Below, piece after piece: positions 18,501 to 54,389 of a DNA stretch of 64,000 nucleotides. Below the pieces are notes generated by a model. That model searched no databases. It had not been told where the DNA came from and saw only the letters and a program-made list of their open reading frames with translations. The stretch comes from Haladaptatus caseinilyticus (GTDB lineage Archaea; Halobacteriota; Halobacteria; Halobacteriales; Haladaptataceae): NCBI RefSeq assembly GCF_026248685.1, contig NZ_CP111036.1, positions 1,240,001 through 1,304,000 on the forward strand, written 5' to 3'. Position numbers and translations under genes: made by a program. The first letter of the stretch is position 1; each line of letters starts with the position of its first letter.

Positions 18501-20003
18501 ATGACGAACGACGACGCCACGGCGCAGAACGTGGTATTCGTTGTGATGGATACGGTGCGTAAAGATCACCTCTCTGTCTACGGATACGACAAACCGACGA
18601 CGCCGGGCCTCGAACGGTTCGCGGAGGATGCGACCGTCTTCGAGCAGGCCGTTGCTCCCGCTCCTTGGACCCTGCCGGTTCACGCCTCGCTGTTCACTGG
18701 AATGTATCCCAGCGAACACGGTGCGAGTCAGGAAAACCCCTATCTAGAAGGCGCGACGACGCTTGCGGAGACGCTTTCGGACGCCGGATACGACACGTCT
18801 TGTTACTCTTCGAACGCGTGGATTACGCCGTACACCCATCTGACGGATGGATTCGACGACCAGGACAACTTCTTCGAAGTGATGCCCGGCGACTTCCTCT
18901 CCGGACCGATGGCCAAGGCGTGGAAGATGATGAACGACAACGAGAAACTCCGCACTGTCGCGGACAAACTCGTCAGCCTCGGCAATGTAGCACACGAGTA
19001 CCTCGCCAGCGGTGAGGGTGCGGACTCGAAGACGCCACAGGTCATCGACCAGACCATCGAGTTCATCGATAACTCCGATGGCCCGTACTTCTCGTTCATC
19101 AACCTGATGGACGCCCATCTGCCGTACCACCCGCCGAAGGAGTACCGACAGCAGTTCGCGCCGAACGTCGATTCGACCAAGGTGTGCCAAAACTCGAAGG
19201 AGTTCAACTGCGGCGCACGTGATATCAGCGACAAGGAGTGGGATGCGATTCGTGGCCTCTACGACGCCGAAATCCGCCATATCGACGACCAACTCCAGCG
19301 CCTGTTCTCGTGGATGCAGGAGAACGACGAGTGGGACGACACGATGGTCGTCATCTGTGCCGACCACGGCGAACTCCACGACGAACACGACCTGTACGGA
19401 CACGAATTCTGTATCTACGACCCGCTCATCAACGTCCCACTGATGGTCAAACATCCCGAGCTGGATGCCGACGTGAGCGACCAACAGGTCGAACTCATCG
19501 ATCTCTACCATACCGTCCTCGACCACGCTGGCGTTTCCGGGTCTCGCTCGACCCGGCCGCTCGACGAAGCGCGGTCGCTTCTCAACGCGAATTACCGTTC
19601 GTTCGCCGAGGACGTACCGGGCGACGGCGAGTGTGCGTTCGTCGAGTACTACCGCCCCGTCGTCGAGTTGAAGCAACTCGAAGAGAAAGCAAAGCGCGCG
19701 AACATCGAACTCGACAAGGACTCGCGCTTTTACTCGCGGATGCGCTCCGCTCGTCGCCCCGATGCTAAGTACATCCGCAACGAACGAATCGCCGACGAGT
19801 TCTACCACTTGGACGAGGACCCCGACGAACTTCACAACGCCCGCGGCGAGGGAAGCGAGGAGGAAGTCGAACTCGAAGCGGCGCTCTCGGACTTCGAGGA
19901 GAGCGTCGGCGGCGAGTGGAAGGACGTCTCGGACGACGACGTGTTGGGCGATATGAGCGACGACGCGAAAGACCGATTACAAGACCTCGGTTACATAGAC
20001 TAA
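18501..20003 (+). CDS. Sulfatase-superfamily protein with Thr instead of the formylglycine residue
   Basis: A 500-aa alkaline-phosphatase/sulfatase superfamily enzyme. Metal-binding segments: VVFVVMDTVRKDH (Asp17, Asp22) and, later, VICADHGELHDEHDLYGHE. The usual sulfatase site C/S-x-P-x-R is replaced by WTLPVH, with Thr57 as the likely nucleophile, as in lipoteichoic-acid and phosphoethanolamine transferases. So phosphoryl or sulfuryl transfer to or from a surface polymer is as likely as sulfate ester hydrolysis. There is no signal peptide or membrane anchor, so a cytoplasmic or membrane-associated role is possible. A TATA-like box (gatatttat, about 18463) precedes the ATG. The next gene starts after one base. 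Confidence 0.88.
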   Translation: MTNDDATAQNVVFVVMDTVRKDHLSVYGYDKPTTPGLERFAEDATVFEQAVAPAPWTLPVHASLFTGMYPSEHGASQENPYLEGATTLAETLSDAGYDTSCYSSNAWITPYTHLTDGFDDQDNFFEVMPGDFLSGPMAKAWKMMNDNEKLRTVADKLVSLGNVAHEYLASGEGADSKTPQVIDQTIEFIDNSDGPYFSFINLMDAHLPYHPPKEYRQQFAPNVDSTKVCQNSKEFNCGARDISDKEWDAIRGLYDAEIRHIDDQLQRLFSWMQENDEWDDTMVVICADHGELHDEHDLYGHEFCIYDPLINVPLMVKHPELDADVSDQQVELIDLYHTVLDHAGVSGSRSTRPLDEARSLLNANYRSFAEDVPGDGECAFVEYYRPVVELKQLEEKAKRANIELDKDSRFYSRMRSARRPDAKYIRNERIADEFYHLDEDPDELHNARGEGSEEEVELEAALSDFEESVGGEWKDVSDDDVLGDMSDDAKDRLQDLGYID

Positions 20004-21072: not shown

Positions 21073-21969
21073 TCACCGTACGTTGCCTCGTTCCCACGTT
21101 TTCATCAGATCGAACAAAATTCGGTTCACCGGCGTTTCGATACCGTGCTCGTGCCCGCGAGCGATGACGGATCCGTTTATCGCGTCGATTTCGGTTCGTC
21201 GACCTGCCTCCACGTCTTGCCGCATCGAGGACGTGTTCGAGACGGTCGCTTCTGCGACCGTCTCGACTGCTGAAACGGCGTCTTCATCGGTCAATTCGAC
21301 GCCGTCAGCGCGGGCGACGCGTGCGGTTTCGCGGGCCGCATCCGCCGCGATTTCGCTGACATCCCCCGAAAGGACGGCTCCGTTTTCGACACGAGAGAGT
21401 GCTGTCACCGGATTGATCGCGGCGTTGACCGCGAGTTTCTCCCACAGCCTGCGCGGCATGTCGTTGGCTATTTTGGTCTCGATTCCGGCAGTGCCGAAGG
21501 CGTTTCCGACACGGCGCGCCGTGTCGGAAACGCCTCCTTCCCGCGCGCCGAGGACGACTTCCCCGATTCCCGTGCATTCGACTTCTCCGGGGGCGGTCAG
21601 GACCGCGCCGTAGCTCGCAGTTCCGGCCAGAACCGGGCAATCGAGATGCTCGGCGAGGAGGCTCTCGTTTCCCAACCCGTTTTGGAGCGAAAGAACCGCG
21701 TCGAACTCCCCGGTCGCCAATTCCCGGGCCGCCGTGTCTGTCTGCGATGCTTTGACGGTCACGACGGCACAGTCGGCTCGCAGTTCATGTCCGTTGTCAG
21801 TCGCGTTCGGATGGACTCGAAAGTCGAACTCGCCGCCGACGTGGAGGCCAAATTCGTGCACCTCACTGGCGTGTGGATTGCGGGCGACGAGCGTTACCCC
21901 GTGCTCACGGGCGAGCAAGCCACCGACAAGACTGCCGAGACTTCCGGCACCGAACACGACGATATCCAT
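21073..21969 (-). CDS. panE: 2-dehydropantoate 2-reductase (ketopantoate reductase)
   Basis: NADPH-dependent reduction of ketopantoate to pantoate in CoA synthesis. N-terminal Rossmann loop FGAGSLGSLVG (about residues 5-15), VKASQTD around 72, SLQNGLGNE around 93, and the catalytic-type lysine in RRLWEKLAVNAAINPVTAL (about 175-195). C-terminal ApbA domain ends DAINGSVIARGHEHGIETPVN. 298 aa. Haloarchaea carry several paralogues, so the physiological substrate is inferred. Confidence 0.88.
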   Translation of the reverse strand: MDIVVFGAGSLGSLVGGLLAREHGVTLVARNPHASEVHEFGLHVGGEFDFRVHPNATDNGHELRADCAVVTVKASQTDTAARELATGEFDAVLSLQNGLGNESLLAEHLDCPVLAGTASYGAVLTAPGEVECTGIGEVVLGAREGGVSDTARRVGNAFGTAGIETKIANDMPRRLWEKLAVNAAINPVTALSRVENGAVLSGDVSEIAADAARETARVARADGVELTDEDAVSAVETVAEATVSNTSSMRQDVEAGRRTEIDAINGSVIARGHEHGIETPVNRILFDLMKTWERGNVR

Positions 21970-35717: not shown

Positions 35718-37763
35718 CTAGGTCGGCTGGTACGATGCTTCGTCCAGAATGATTCCCTCGTCGTTGGCGACGACTACGGTGTCAGGATTGCTGTTGTTGA
35801 GAACTGCCCCATTGAATCCGGCGTAGAGGGTCGATTCGGTGTCCTCTCCCTGTCCGTTGCGAACAGTGACCGTCTCGCCCGCTCCGAGCGTGACGTTTTC
35901 GAACGTATAGTTCTGTGCCCGTCCTCCTTCGAAGCTGAGAATGAATCCCGACATGTCGAGAGCATCGTTGCCTGTGTTTTGCACTCTGGCGTACTCGTTG
36001 TTGAGGTCCCCGTCCTGATTCGGTCGGATTTCCGTGATTTCGAGGGGTTCTTGGTCCGGTCGCTCGGAGATCAATTCTGCCCCGGGGGACCCAGCCTCCG
36101 TCACGAACGACGCGACGGTGCGAACCGACGCCGTTGGCTCCTCGACGGTTGAGACCGCTCGATAGTCGGTTCGCCACTCCTCTTCGGAGAGCGTACAGCG
36201 GACGTACCCGCGTTCGACGTTGAAGAACCGTTGCCACGGTTCGCTCGCCGACGAACCGTACTGTGTCAAACCGGATGTGTCTCCGAACGACGAGATGGAG
36301 GTCCCGACGTACTCCGTTCCTACGGTTTCGGAGTCGGGATTCGAAAAGTCGGCTTTGAGGTCGTACGCGTAGTTCCGGTGGACGTCACCGGTGATGACGA
36401 CTGGATTGAGGTCGTCATCGTCGGACATGACATCGAGCAACGTCTTCCGGTCGGCGCGGTAACCGTCCCACTTGTCGCCGCCACCGAAGTCCACGTTCTC
36501 CGGACTCGCATCGTTGTCCGTTGCCGCGAAGGGAACTTGCTGTGCAAGGACGTTCCACTGCGATTTGGAGTTCTTCAGTTCGTCCACGAGCCACTGTTCC
36601 TGTTCGTCACCGAGGATGGTTCGATCGGGATTTTTCGCCTTCTCGCTGGACCTCGTCTGGTCGTCGCGGTACTGGCGTGTATCGAGTACGTTGAACTCGG
36701 CCAGCTCTCCGAACGTAAACTGGCGATACAGCGGCATGTCCGGACCGTCGGGCATCCGCGAGCGGCGTATCGGTTGATGTTCCCAGTACGCTTGATACGC
36801 GTCCGCCCGCCGTTCGAGGAACTCCTCCGGTGGGGTCCCTTCGTCTATTTCATCGGCGTAGTTGTTCGCGACCTCGTGGTCGTCCCACGTGATGATCCAG
36901 GGGGATGAAGCGTGCGCGTCTTGGAGATTCGAGTCCGACTTGTACTGTGCGTGCCGGATTCGATAGTCAGCCAGGCTCTCGATTTCCCGTGGTGGTTCGT
37001 GACCGCGGTCCAGCGAGCCTTGCGAACCTCCTTCGTAGATGTAGTCGCCGAGGTGAAACACTACGTCGAGGTCTTCCGTGGCCAAGTGCTGATGAGCGGT
37101 ATAATAGCCGTACGGATAGTTTTGACAGGACGCGAACACAAATCTGAGTTCATCGACGTCCGAATCCACCGTTGGTGTCGTTTTCGTCCTCCCGACAGGG
37201 CTTCGGTAGGACCCGACTGTGAACTGATAGATGTATTCCGTGTTTGGTTCTAACTCTTCGACCTCTACGTGAACCGAATGCGCGTGCTCGGGTCGGGCAT
37301 ACGCGGTCCCCGATCGGACGACGCGACTGTCCTCCCGCTCGTTCTCATCCTGTTCGTCTTCATCCTCATTCTGCTCGTCTTCGTCGTCATCCGAATCGTT
37401 CTCGTTGCCCCTCTCAGTCTCCGAATCGTCATCATCGTCCTCGTCGTCTCCTTCCGTTACTATCTCCCACTGAACCGGGATTTCACGGTCGGGCATCCCG
37501 CCGTCCGCCTTCAGCGGGTCGAGCGCGAGACGGGTCCAGAGGACGACTGAATCGGGCAGCGGGTCGCCGGAGGCGACACCGAGCGTGAAGGGGTTGTCGC
37601 TGAAACGAGCGCCGTCGTCGTCTTCCCCGGTTGCGAACCCGACGCTCCCGAAGGTGGTGAGTCCTGCGACGCCAGTAGCCGTGCGAAGGAACTCCCGTCG
37701 TTTCGCTGAAAGAAATTTATCATTCTGCTCATTTTTCTTATTTTTGCTTCTATCTAGTGACAT
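35718..37763 (-). CDS. phoD: Tat-exported PhoD-family alkaline phosphatase with C-terminal lamin-tail domain
   Basis: A 681-aa phosphatase/phosphodiesterase. Twin-arginine signal at about residues 20-42 (SAKRREFLRTATGVAGL). A PhoD N-domain follows (NPFTLGVASGDPLPDSVVLWTRLA), interrupted by a D/E-rich insert (about 100-145). The metallophosphatase domain shows VFHLGDYIYEGG, IITWDDHEVANNYA and VVITGDVHRNYAYDL. The last about 105 residues form a lamin-tail-like domain (ITEIRPNQDGDLNNEYARVQN onward). PhoD enzymes cleave phosphodiesters to release phosphate outside the cell, with Fe/Ca. A palindrome covers the promoter region. Confidence 0.9.
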   Translation of the reverse strand: MSLDRSKNKKNEQNDKFLSAKRREFLRTATGVAGLTTFGSVGFATGEDDDGARFSDNPFTLGVASGDPLPDSVVLWTRLALDPLKADGGMPDREIPVQWEIVTEGDDEDDDDDSETERGNENDSDDDEDEQNEDEDEQDENEREDSRVVRSGTAYARPEHAHSVHVEVEELEPNTEYIYQFTVGSYRSPVGRTKTTPTVDSDVDELRFVFASCQNYPYGYYTAHQHLATEDLDVVFHLGDYIYEGGSQGSLDRGHEPPREIESLADYRIRHAQYKSDSNLQDAHASSPWIITWDDHEVANNYADEIDEGTPPEEFLERRADAYQAYWEHQPIRRSRMPDGPDMPLYRQFTFGELAEFNVLDTRQYRDDQTRSSEKAKNPDRTILGDEQEQWLVDELKNSKSQWNVLAQQVPFAATDNDASPENVDFGGGDKWDGYRADRKTLLDVMSDDDDLNPVVITGDVHRNYAYDLKADFSNPDSETVGTEYVGTSISSFGDTSGLTQYGSSASEPWQRFFNVERGYVRCTLSEEEWRTDYRAVSTVEEPTASVRTVASFVTEAGSPGAELISERPDQEPLEITEIRPNQDGDLNNEYARVQNTGNDALDMSGFILSFEGGRAQNYTFENVTLGAGETVTVRNGQGEDTESTLYAGFNGAVLNNSNPDTVVVANDEGIILDEASYQPT

Positions 37764-52354: not shown

Positions 52355-52827
52355 ATGGAGTACGAACTTTCCCCGCTCACTGCCGACGACGTGGATGCGA
52401 TCGTCTCGTGGCACTACGACCCGCCCTATGATTTCTACGATATGGAGAGCGACCCGGAAGATTTGGCGCTGTTCACGAATCCGGATAACTGGGACGACAA
52501 GTATGCTGCCTTCGATTTGTCGGGCCAACGTGTCGGATTCTTCTCGTTCGAACTGGATGACGATAGCGGAACGCTCGAAGTCGGGTTAGGGATGCATCCG
52601 GAGGTGACCGACGACGGTCACGGACAGTCGTTCGTCGAGGCAGGATTGGCGTTTGCGCAGGACGAGTACAACCCCGAGCAATTTTCGTTGGCCGTAGCGA
52701 CGTTCAACGAGCGCGCGATTTCCGTGTATGAAGACGTCGGGTTCGAGCGTCGGGGACGTTCATGCAGGAAACGAACGGTGAAGAGTACGAATTTCTCCGC
52801 ATGACTCTCTCGGATTTGTCGGAGTGA
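52355..52827 (+). pseudogene. GNAT acetyltransferase with a frameshift near the C-terminus
   Basis: Frame 1 gives residues up to GFERRG (about residue 132) of a GNAT protein (VGLGMHPEVTDDGHGQSFVE is the acetyl-CoA loop; ATFNERAISVYEDVGF is motif B). It then continues as RSCRKRTVKSTNFSA to a stop at 52804. The other frame, from the same point, reads TFMQETNGEEYEFLRM on to a stop at 52827, which is the expected GNAT ending. One missing G in the GGGG run at 52752-52755 explains it. Either a real recent frameshift or a sequencing error; with it repaired, the protein would be 157 aa. Confidence 0.85.
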
Positions 52828-53281
52828 CCTATAAGAGGCTGCGCCAGAGGTGAGCAACGCGAATACCGAGTGAAATTCCGCGCTGGCGGGGAGGAGTGGG
52901 GACACTGACGGTGCTGTTCCTTGGTGGATGAAGGGCGAGCGAACGAATATGAGCGAGGGCTGGAGAAAATCGAAGATTTTCACGACCGCGAAAGACTCCG
53001 TCTTTCGCAGGCTTCGTTTGTTGTCGGCAACTGCTAGCCACTTCTTGATTATTTCTGCCGTTAGCAGTTGCCGACAACAAATAACCGTCACCGCACCAGC
53101 CACGCCCTCCCCAACCGATTCCTTCCCTCACTCCGTTCGCTCATCATCCCTCGCACGCTGTCAGCACAGGGTTTCGGACGACCGTTGTCCTCAGCCCTGT
53201 GCCAGCGCACGCCACGTGGGAAAATGCCTTTACCGAATTGAGAGACACGGAATTCGACTGTTCGCGGAAAACGTTTTGCAC
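52828..53281. repeat. Gene-free region packed with hairpins and shared repeat boxes
   Basis: No gene found. Four hairpins lie close together: GAAAATC/GATTTTC (52965-52981), GCGAAAGAC/GTCTTTCGC (52988-53008), a 20-bp perfect one (53017-53081) and GCACAGGG/CCCTGTGC (53164-53202). Boxes at 53107-53122 and 53195-53213 match boxes in the 44.2-44.4 kb gap. It looks like a nest of dispersed intergenic repeats rather than a single element. The right end contains the pyrD 3' flank. Confidence 0.6.
53017..53081. repeat. Perfect 20-bp inverted repeat
   Basis: Positions 53017-53036 and 53062-53081 are exact reverse complements (start TTTGTTGTCGGCAACTGCTA) with a 25-base spacer. The stem is long enough to form a stable cruciform or RNA hairpin. 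It lies between the GNAT remnant and pyrD, which converge, so it could serve as a bidirectional terminator or be the core of a miniature element. Confidence 0.9.
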
Positions 53282-54340
53282 TTAGTCGAGGTCCGCACCG
53301 ATAGCGTCCTCGACGCTGTCGAAGCCGTCACGATCGAGCAGTTCGAGCAGTCCCTCGTTGATGTCGCGGGCAACTGCCGGGCCGCGGTAGACGAGGCCGG
53401 TGTACAACTGGATGACGTGCGCTCCGGCGCGAATCTTCCGATAGGCGTCTTCCGCGGTGAACACCCCACCGACGCCGACGACCGGTACGTCCACGCGCTC
53501 GGCAGCGAACCGAATCATCTCCGTGGCACGCGATTGGATGGGTCGTCCGGACAGTCCGCCGTCTTCCTTACGATACTGACTACGGAGCGTGTTGGGACGG
53601 TCGATGGTCGTGTTCGTCGCGATGACGCCGTCCAGACCGAGTTCCGTTACGAGATCGAGCGCTTCCTCGGTTGCTGATTCTGGAAGGTCGGGCGAGAGCT
53701 TCACCAGGAGTGGACTCGCGCCCGCATCCTGCAACGTCGTTAGAATTCGTTCGAGGTTCTCGCGGTTCTGTAGCTCACGTAGCCCCGGCGTGTTCGGACT
53801 GGAGACGTTCACGACGAAGTAGTCGGCGTGCGCGGACACGCGTTCGTAGGAGTACAGATAGTCCTCCTCGGCGCTTTCGAGCGGTGTGGCCTTCGATTTT
53901 CCGATGTTCGCGCCGATGGGGATGTCCGGGAGCGATTGCGTGGCCATCCGTGCCCCGATTCTGTCCGCACCGTGATTGTTGAACCCCATCCGGTTGATGA
54001 TGCCCTCGTCCTCGCGGAGGCGGAACATCCGGGGCTTCGGATTCCCGTCCTGTGCATCCGCGGTCACACCACCGATCTCGACGTGACCGAACCCGAGACT
54101 GGCAAGTGCAGAGGGTATCTGTGCGTTTTTGTCGAAGCCTGCGGCAACGCCGACCGGATTCGGGAACGATTGATCGAACGCAGAGACGGTCAATTTGGCA
54201 TCATCGACTCCGTAGTGTGCGTCGAGTAGTCGTTCGACCGGCGTTCCCTGAATCGCTTCGAGTACAGTGTGGACGGTTCCGTGAGCGGTCTCTGCGGGTA
54301 ACTGAAACAACAGTGGTCTGACGGCGTCGTATCCGTGCAT
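53282..54340 (-). CDS. pyrD: Dihydroorotate dehydrogenase, class 2 (quinone)
   Basis: Oxidises dihydroorotate to orotate in pyrimidine synthesis with quinone as acceptor. The 352-aa protein has a class-2 N-terminal helical part (MHGYDAVRPLLFQLPAETAH), then PNPVGVAAGFDKNAQ, GNPKPRMFRL, NRMGFNNHGAD, VVNVSSPNTPGLRELQ with the catalytic Ser, LVKLSPDLP and GGVFTAEDAYRKIRAGAHVIQLYTGLVYRGP, split here at natural breaks. The frame is open up to 54559, but that extension translates the reverse complement of the next gene, so the ATG at 54340 is used. Confidence 0.96.
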   Translation of the reverse strand: MHGYDAVRPLLFQLPAETAHGTVHTVLEAIQGTPVERLLDAHYGVDDAKLTVSAFDQSFPNPVGVAAGFDKNAQIPSALASLGFGHVEIGGVTADAQDGNPKPRMFRLREDEGIINRMGFNNHGADRIGARMATQSLPDIPIGANIGKSKATPLESAEEDYLYSYERVSAHADYFVVNVSSPNTPGLRELQNRENLERILTTLQDAGASPLLVKLSPDLPESATEEALDLVTELGLDGVIATNTTIDRPNTLRSQYRKEDGGLSGRPIQSRATEMIRFAAERVDVPVVGVGGVFTAEDAYRKIRAGAHVIQLYTGLVYRGPAVARDINEGLLELLDRDGFDSVEDAIGADLD

Positions 54341-54389
54341 CGTTCTACCAGTATAGAGAAACGTATCGCCTGCGGTCTGCCGCGGCGAG

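Follow-up and report, generated by a model that had tools for sequence, protein, structure and literature searches.

A dispersed palindromic repeat family of haloarchaeal intergenic DNA, with cores in opposite orientations in related species

Results

The locus between a GNAT gene and pyrD

The window analysed here is a 64,000-nucleotide stretch of Haladaptatus caseinilyticus DNA; an archaeal rRNA operon was found, and the window is haloarchaeal chromosome. A GNAT acetyltransferase gene (52355-52804, plus strand; PF13302/PF00583) and pyrD, for dihydroorotate dehydrogenase (53282-54388, minus strand; PF01180, E 1e-81, with synteny in relatives), converge on a gap in which an earlier note had seen four perfect inverted repeats, one of 20 bp, next to a broken GNAT gene. 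The GNAT gene is indeed frame-shifted near its 3' end, its last ~15 codons being out of frame by comparison with the C-termini of five relatives; against these congeners the shift may be a small insertion or deletion or a sequencing error. Between the GNAT stop at 52804 and the pyrD stop at 53282 there are mechanical open frames only, in agreement with the note's description of the gap as free of coding sequence, and the copies of the repeat described below differ by insertions and deletions, which fits non-coding DNA.

The hairpins of 52960-53213 are real and beyond chance. A count of perfect inverted repeats between these limits, with a minimum arm of 7 bp, recovered all four: a 7-bp hairpin (52965-52971/52975-52981), a 9-bp hairpin (52988-52996/53000-53008), the 20-bp inverted repeat around a 25-nt loop (53017-53036/53062-53081), and an 8-bp hairpin (53164-53171/53195-53202) that is longer when a recurrent CT/TC mismatch is allowed. 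Four or more such repeats occurred in 1 of 1000 dinucleotide shuffles of 52960-53213 and a 20-bp arm in none of them, the longest shuffled arm being 11; the 20-bp arm is also the longest perfect one in the 64-kb window for loops of 3-40. The density of hairpins is not unique, as 15 of 1275 overlapping 254-bp segments, 52960-53213 included, held at least four. Folding of the 396 nt from 52830 to 53225 beat 100 shuffles on both strands as RNA (z -5.8 and -4.5), and as DNA the plus strand gave a z of -6.8 against shuffles. Elsewhere in the window, a perfect palindrome with 19-bp arms and no loop lies at 21498-21535, and five to six perfect inverted repeats (at least 7 bp) per 254 bp occur at ~19550-19900 and 36100-36450.

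Anatomy of the repeat unit

These hairpins are part of a larger feature, at about 52843-53213, made of two non-coding units of ~150-200 bp each that stand head to head. Because of this arrangement, the 20-bp inverted repeat is the pair of heads and its 25-nt loop (53037-53061) the core between them. Unit B (53062-53213, plus strand) runs from its head (53062-53081) through a ACCGCACC stretch, the core word CCTCCCCAACCGATT (53106-53120), a ATCCCTCGCACG block (53146-53157) and a tail hairpin (53164-53202, located by the repeat scan and by stem scoring) to the tail word CCAGCGCACGCC (53202-53213, plus strand), whose consensus in an alignment of copies is CCAGCGCGCGCC. Within its own genome no sequence matched a model of the unit better (E 6.8e-23); the 17 sequences behind the model include this copy. 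Unit A (52843-53036, minus strand; the outer end, near 52843, is approximate) has its head in the left arm of the 20-bp repeat (53017-53036, minus strand; a motif also counted in relatives), followed by the 7-bp and 9-bp hairpins, a CCTTCATCCACC motif (52923-52934) and a tail with an inverted repeat. A may be a divergent, longer version of the unit type displayed by B; stretches similar to A occur in its own genome and in relatives, and A is self-complementary with B at 57%. Across aligned copies, the consensus consists of a head (GCAAATCACGACTCCAAT in relatives, GCAGTTGCCGACAACAAA in the window), a pyrimidine-rich body (CCTCCCCARCCGAYT ... ATCCCTCGCRCG), a variable hairpin and the tail, with the repeated loci of the window's own genome left out of the alignment and of the tail-hairpin count.

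For the 147 units that span nearly the whole model, a tail-hairpin stem score of at least 9 was reached by 89, compared with 9 of 147 shuffled units. A CT/TC mismatch pair recurs in these stems (C-T 77 and T-C 76 cells), as though the stem retained an internal loop, and G-T mismatches numbered 20 against 46 for A-C, a comparison confounded by base composition. RNAalifold on 17 units returned only 5 pairs, the hairpin sequences being too variable for alignment, so this result counts neither for nor against structure.

A widespread family without recent copies among the units fetched

When the window's own genome was searched with 52830-53225, further partial copies were returned; the sequence is multi-copy and not single-copy. 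The model gave ten matches in this genome at E <0.002, all on contig C1, with 150 of 2765 candidates scored. Matches numbered at least 123 in a Haladaptatus relative (G003), at least 113 in G006 (taken as Haladaptatus litoreus) and at least 88 in G007 (taken as H. pallidirubidus), the latter two of the same genus as the window; these are lower bounds, with 150 candidates scored per genome. The core word, with one mismatch allowed, was found 109 times in G003 against 3 for a reversed control, 91 against 2 in G006, 144 against 1 in genome G015 and 11 against 4 in the window's own genome; the congener G008 gave 3 against 3, so that not every relative carries the repeat. Head motif matches numbered 64 in G003, 53 in G006, 30 in G007 and 4 in the window's own genome (control 0). 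The exact core word was present in 142 of 292 genomes sampled from the class Halobacteria, own genome and congeners included, compared with 0-1 for the reversed control. Carriers of a longer word (49 stretches) included Haladaptatus, Halorussus, Halosimplex, Halogranum, Haloprofundus, Halobium, Halococcus and Halorarius, and this word was also seen in several uncultured Halobacteriales MAGs (L157, L158, L160, L165, L174, L178 and others). The plasmid collection consisted of 3 records. The locus belongs to a palindromic, non-coding repeat family that is interspersed and widespread in haloarchaea.

Recent copies were absent among the fetched units, the closest paralogue being at most 88% alike among 66 from G003 and 83% among 37 from G006. 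Concerted evolution by exchange among the copies of one genome was considered and rejected: the nearest copy stood at 0.774 within G006 and at 0.788 in G003, and the same-genome copy was the nearer in 12 of 37.

Pairing of units

At 70 sites in G003 and G006, the commonest arrangement was two units tail to tail ('+-'; 30 sites, 36 with an extra unit), with 22 single units and 5 head-to-head pairs. Core length was nearly constant within each type: tail-to-tail cores measured 38-43 bp in 32 of 33 (~41 bp typical), and head-to-head cores 29 bp in 6 of 9 pairs among the matches listed, the window pair being head-to-head with its 25-nt core. Overall, cores spanned 23-43 bp and were mostly 25-43 bp. 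At L134, L109 and L124, extra tandem head words ~60-80 bp apart were observed next to repeats, outside the composite.

The stems are conserved as stems. The 20-bp arm of the window, TTTGTTGTCGGCAACTGCTA, pairs perfectly, and in the same pyrD gap the head arms of two relatives differ in sequence but remain complementary (TTTGTTGTCGTGATTTGCT in G006, with 19 bp and a single mismatch; 11 bp in G003). Arms that vary between species and nevertheless pair would result if a hairpin served to copy one arm onto the other; selection for the hairpin would have the same effect. The two long arms of one composite were no more alike than random copies (0.67-0.68 compared with 0.66), which argues that arm copying is not general and, if it happens, is local.

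Placement relative to genes

The position of the window copy between convergent genes is what a bidirectional transcription terminator dedicated to such genes would call for, and the earlier note had proposed one. As a role for the family it found no support. None of the 69 sites with both neighbours in G003 and G006 was spanned by a gene (one contig-edge site left out; genes called by a codon-usage script), and 35 sites fell in tandem, 11 in convergent and 23 in divergent gaps, compared with 37.2, 10.7 and 21.1 expected from intergenic length. A scan of the window stretch for loops of 3-8 returned no terminator-like site, and the combination of a hairpin followed by a T-run with enrichment in convergent gaps was not seen. 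Since sites follow intergenic length, the family does not behave as a convergent-gene terminator; no match adjoins pyrD in G001, G002, G004, G005 or G008, and we regard a terminator role as highly improbable.

An element acting at the RNA level, whose hairpins once transcribed would stabilise mRNA 3' ends, act as processing sites or form a small RNA, would account for the strong folding on both strands and for the excess of tail-hairpin stems with their recurrent CT/TC mismatch. However, the balance of G-T and A-C mismatches gives no clear strand signature within its confounding by base composition, placement ignores gene orientation, and cores occur in both orientations. Rfam returned no family at gathering score at this place and chance-level matches below it. 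We judge an RNA-level role to be improbable.

Persistent sites with fast-changing content

Thirty-three of 42 G006 sites lay in the collinear G003 gap, none was seen to be absent, 5 had no G003 locus available for comparison and 4 were classed as partial; the E cut-off for calling sites was a lenient 0.5, 9 sites lacking collinear flanks on both sides were left out, and the sharing is biased upwards because the G003 loci had been fetched for holding the repeat. The pyrD gap itself contained a match in G000, G003, G006 and G007, and none at E 0.01 in G010 or in the five genomes named above. Single units were visible by eye in two pyrD gaps of loci taken as Halorussus (L076 and L084), and in four other loci of the same presumed origin (L077, L080, L081 and L083) pheT and pyrD lie within about 45 bp of each other.

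G003 and G006 share 91% identity over 136 kb of aligned DNA, but within the elements the interiors align at only 0.50-0.60. The orthologous interior ranked first among 65 G003 sites in only 6 of 32 cases, and the closest G003 unit sat in the orthologous gap for only 4 of 32 units, so that fast divergence or replacement beyond inversion also occurs. Units at orthologous loci were slightly more alike than background (best identity median 0.73, n=29, compared with a mean of 0.66). Over 44 edges of 32 sites (L068 being left out here and in the interior ranking), identity fell from 0.85 at 150 bp outside to 0.58 at 40-60 bp outside, recovered to 0.79 within the head, and was 0.50-0.60 at more than 60 bp inside; the idea that the heads mark a sharp breakpoint was rejected.

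Cores in opposite orientation between species

The cores are asymmetric, which makes a clean test of orientation possible. Palindromic arms can mimic an inversion, and for this reason inverted tracts covering whole interiors, as well as head-to-head scores that include the arms (direct, inverted, direct), were not counted. On the cores alone, 7 of 14 resolved sites, among them the pyrD gap, showed an inversion; what is compared is the sequence end states of three or four assemblies. The same loop occurs in opposite orientations at the same locus in relatives.

Tail-to-tail cores were inverted at L150/L128 and L211/L114, with scores above all 200 shuffles, and at L236/L132 and L233/L100, with scores above all 500; L236/L147 was direct. 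A longer tract also seems inverted at L211/L114. Direct orientation was found at seven sites (L142, L149, L203, L206, L208, L216 at 7542, and L235/L140), and orientation was unclear for 4 of 12 tail-to-tail cores in the first comparison and for 4 of 8 comparisons in the second. The partner core was the best or tied-best match among 33 cores in all 10 pairs tested.

Two head-to-head pairs, at pyrD and L220/L106, had cores inverted between G006 and G003 (0 of 2000 shuffles reached the score in either case), and the G007 core at L240 was inverted to both G006 L221 (0 of 2000) and G003 L104 (8 of 2000), these last two being direct to each other. One further head-to-head site was weak, with 48 and 905 of 2000 shuffles, and is suggestive only. 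At L220/L106 the inverted match was clearly better than at other sites (24 compared with at most 16). At pyrD the inverted match of 17 was no better than some other sites and the G003 core matches another site equally; the consensus common to head-to-head cores makes flipping here indistinguishable from replacement by a different copy. The core of the window itself is too diverged to orient (direct to G003 with a score of 8, which 214 of 2000 shuffles reached). As a control, none of 20 repeat-free gaps in the same genomes held an inverted comparison window (391 direct, 0 inverted).

We also considered a duplicate in G007 of at least 40 kb (G007:C1:1420000-1459999 and 1971849-2011848, 551,849 bp apart; L242-L245), which may be an assembly artefact or a recent duplication, as a test of recent flipping. 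It was set aside, as 40,000 of 40,000 positions are identical and it carries no information on this point.

Discussion

Copies of this repeat are dispersed and intergenic, they share sites between the species compared, and at half of the resolved sites their cores stand in opposite orientations between species. The earlier note had likened the locus to bacterial REP/BIME clusters, and the likeness holds for architecture. REP dimers and BIMEs of the GTAG and CGTC families are described in PMC3733652 as high-copy intergenic palindromes, often head-to-head or tail-to-tail, with spacers of 20-100 bp of which some are conserved, and with numbers that vary by species; the haloarchaeal repeat likewise forms high-copy intergenic palindromes in alternating orientation. 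It fails for unit size, tag and transposase. The haloarchaeal unit is ~150-200 bp long, compared with 20-40 bp for a REP unit, and in place of a fixed GTAG or CGTC tag it has the head GCAAATCACGACTCC and the tail given above, with GCTAGC contained in some heads and not fixed. According to the same description, a RAYT (Y1 tyrosine) transposase goes with GTAG families and CGTC families are without one (PMC3733652). Unlike for the GTAG REPs, no Y1/RAYT-type transposase (PF01797) was found in five repeat-rich haloarchaeal genomes (G003, G018, G011, G032 and G035), and the host is an archaeon; the enzyme was present in 30 of 59 genomes, including G006, G007 and G015. On these tested features we refuse the repeat membership of REP. 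The main text of one recent REP survey contains no word starting with 'Halo' (PMC12306157).

Non-coding repeats are described for one haloarchaeon, Haloquadratum walsbyi, as PATEs, small mobile repeats (SMR) and 'SwitchRepeats' (PMC3119063). By that description PATEs have near-terminal palindromes, IS605-type-like ends and no terminal inverted repeats, while SMRs have inverted terminal repeats and a mobilisation given as unknown, with SMR-A at ~110 bp and commonly >95% alike (PMC3119063). In our family, single units carry a near-terminal hairpin and many sites are inverted pairs; the fetched copies, at most 88% alike, contrast with those of SMR-A.

A MITE- or PATE-like element that is still mobile, moved by a transposase supplied in trans, would explain the opposite orientations as repeated targeting of one spot. 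The copies are dispersed, their numbers are uneven among congeners (G003 against G008), the pyrD gap has a match in some genomes and none in others, and the Haloquadratum elements are described as targeting one another (PMC3119063). Against current mobility stand the distance between even the closest fetched paralogues, the 33 shared sites with none seen absent (in a sample biased that way), the lack of Y1 transposase in the five repeat-rich genomes, and the inverted tail-to-tail cores that match their own partner best. Of the features of MITEs, inverted pairs exist, the element ends are not sharp, and no empty and filled pair was both clean and close enough. We consider a currently mobile element unlikely, and of the earlier note's suggestion of a miniature mobile element it is the origin that stays plausible.

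Inversion could alternatively be programmed, with a dedicated recombinase flipping cores of fixed length. The nearly fixed core lengths, the asymmetry of the cores and the inversion at half of the resolved sites would all suit such a system. Lengths of 23-43 bp, on the other hand, are too short for the ordinary looping of double-stranded DNA, and the longer tract that seems inverted at L211/L114 implies that breakpoints may vary. This makes a dedicated recombinase decidedly improbable in our estimation. For cores and arms this short, a hairpin or cruciform intermediate would be a better fit than a loop of double-stranded DNA.

We favour, as reasonably probable, the reading of the family as an old, BIME-like palindromic mosaic distinct from REP, which keeps its position and is remodelled in place by hairpin-mediated inversion. 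Under this mechanism, which we infer, arms in single-stranded DNA would form extruded hairpins or cruciforms; the core would then be flipped by template switching or by exchange between the arms, which could also copy one short arm onto the other, and the locus would be remodelled without a change of position. Transposition probably dispersed the family in the past, after which it would have persisted as a structural DNA element between genes. Words fixed across families and core lengths that are nearly fixed suggest that selection still acts, on a protein or on a DNA shape.

As described in PMC6824564, stem-loop small inversions of plastids likewise show both loop orientations among related species at fixed places, with short arms; the plastid loops are 4-24 bp at separate hairpins, whereas most haloarchaeal cores measure 25-43 bp and are part of a single dispersed family. 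In bacterial invertons, as described in PMC11892184, DNA between inverted repeats likewise occurs in both orientations; invertons generate heterogeneity within a population, whereas the haloarchaeal cores are known here from assemblies of different species.

A more far-reaching possibility, which we hold to be quite unlikely, is a genome-wide invertible intergenic array, with dozens of sites per genome whose asymmetric cores, of two nearly constant lengths (~29 bp between heads and 41 bp between tails), would be flipped by dedicated cellular machinery, with orientation near random between species and position kept by selection. If true, such an array would add to the archaeal chromosome a structural or regulatory layer without a bacterial counterpart.

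We found no description of such a repeat family among the open-licence papers listed, which is weak evidence of absence. For comparative genomics, alignments near repeat loci can mislead. In some haloarchaea the family occupies around a hundred or more intergenic places, and these offer natural, position-matched palindromes for counting inversion. Haloarchaea are polyploid and genetically tractable, so that the way in which short inverted repeats flip, and a possible part of these elements in organising archaeal chromosomes, can be put to a direct test.
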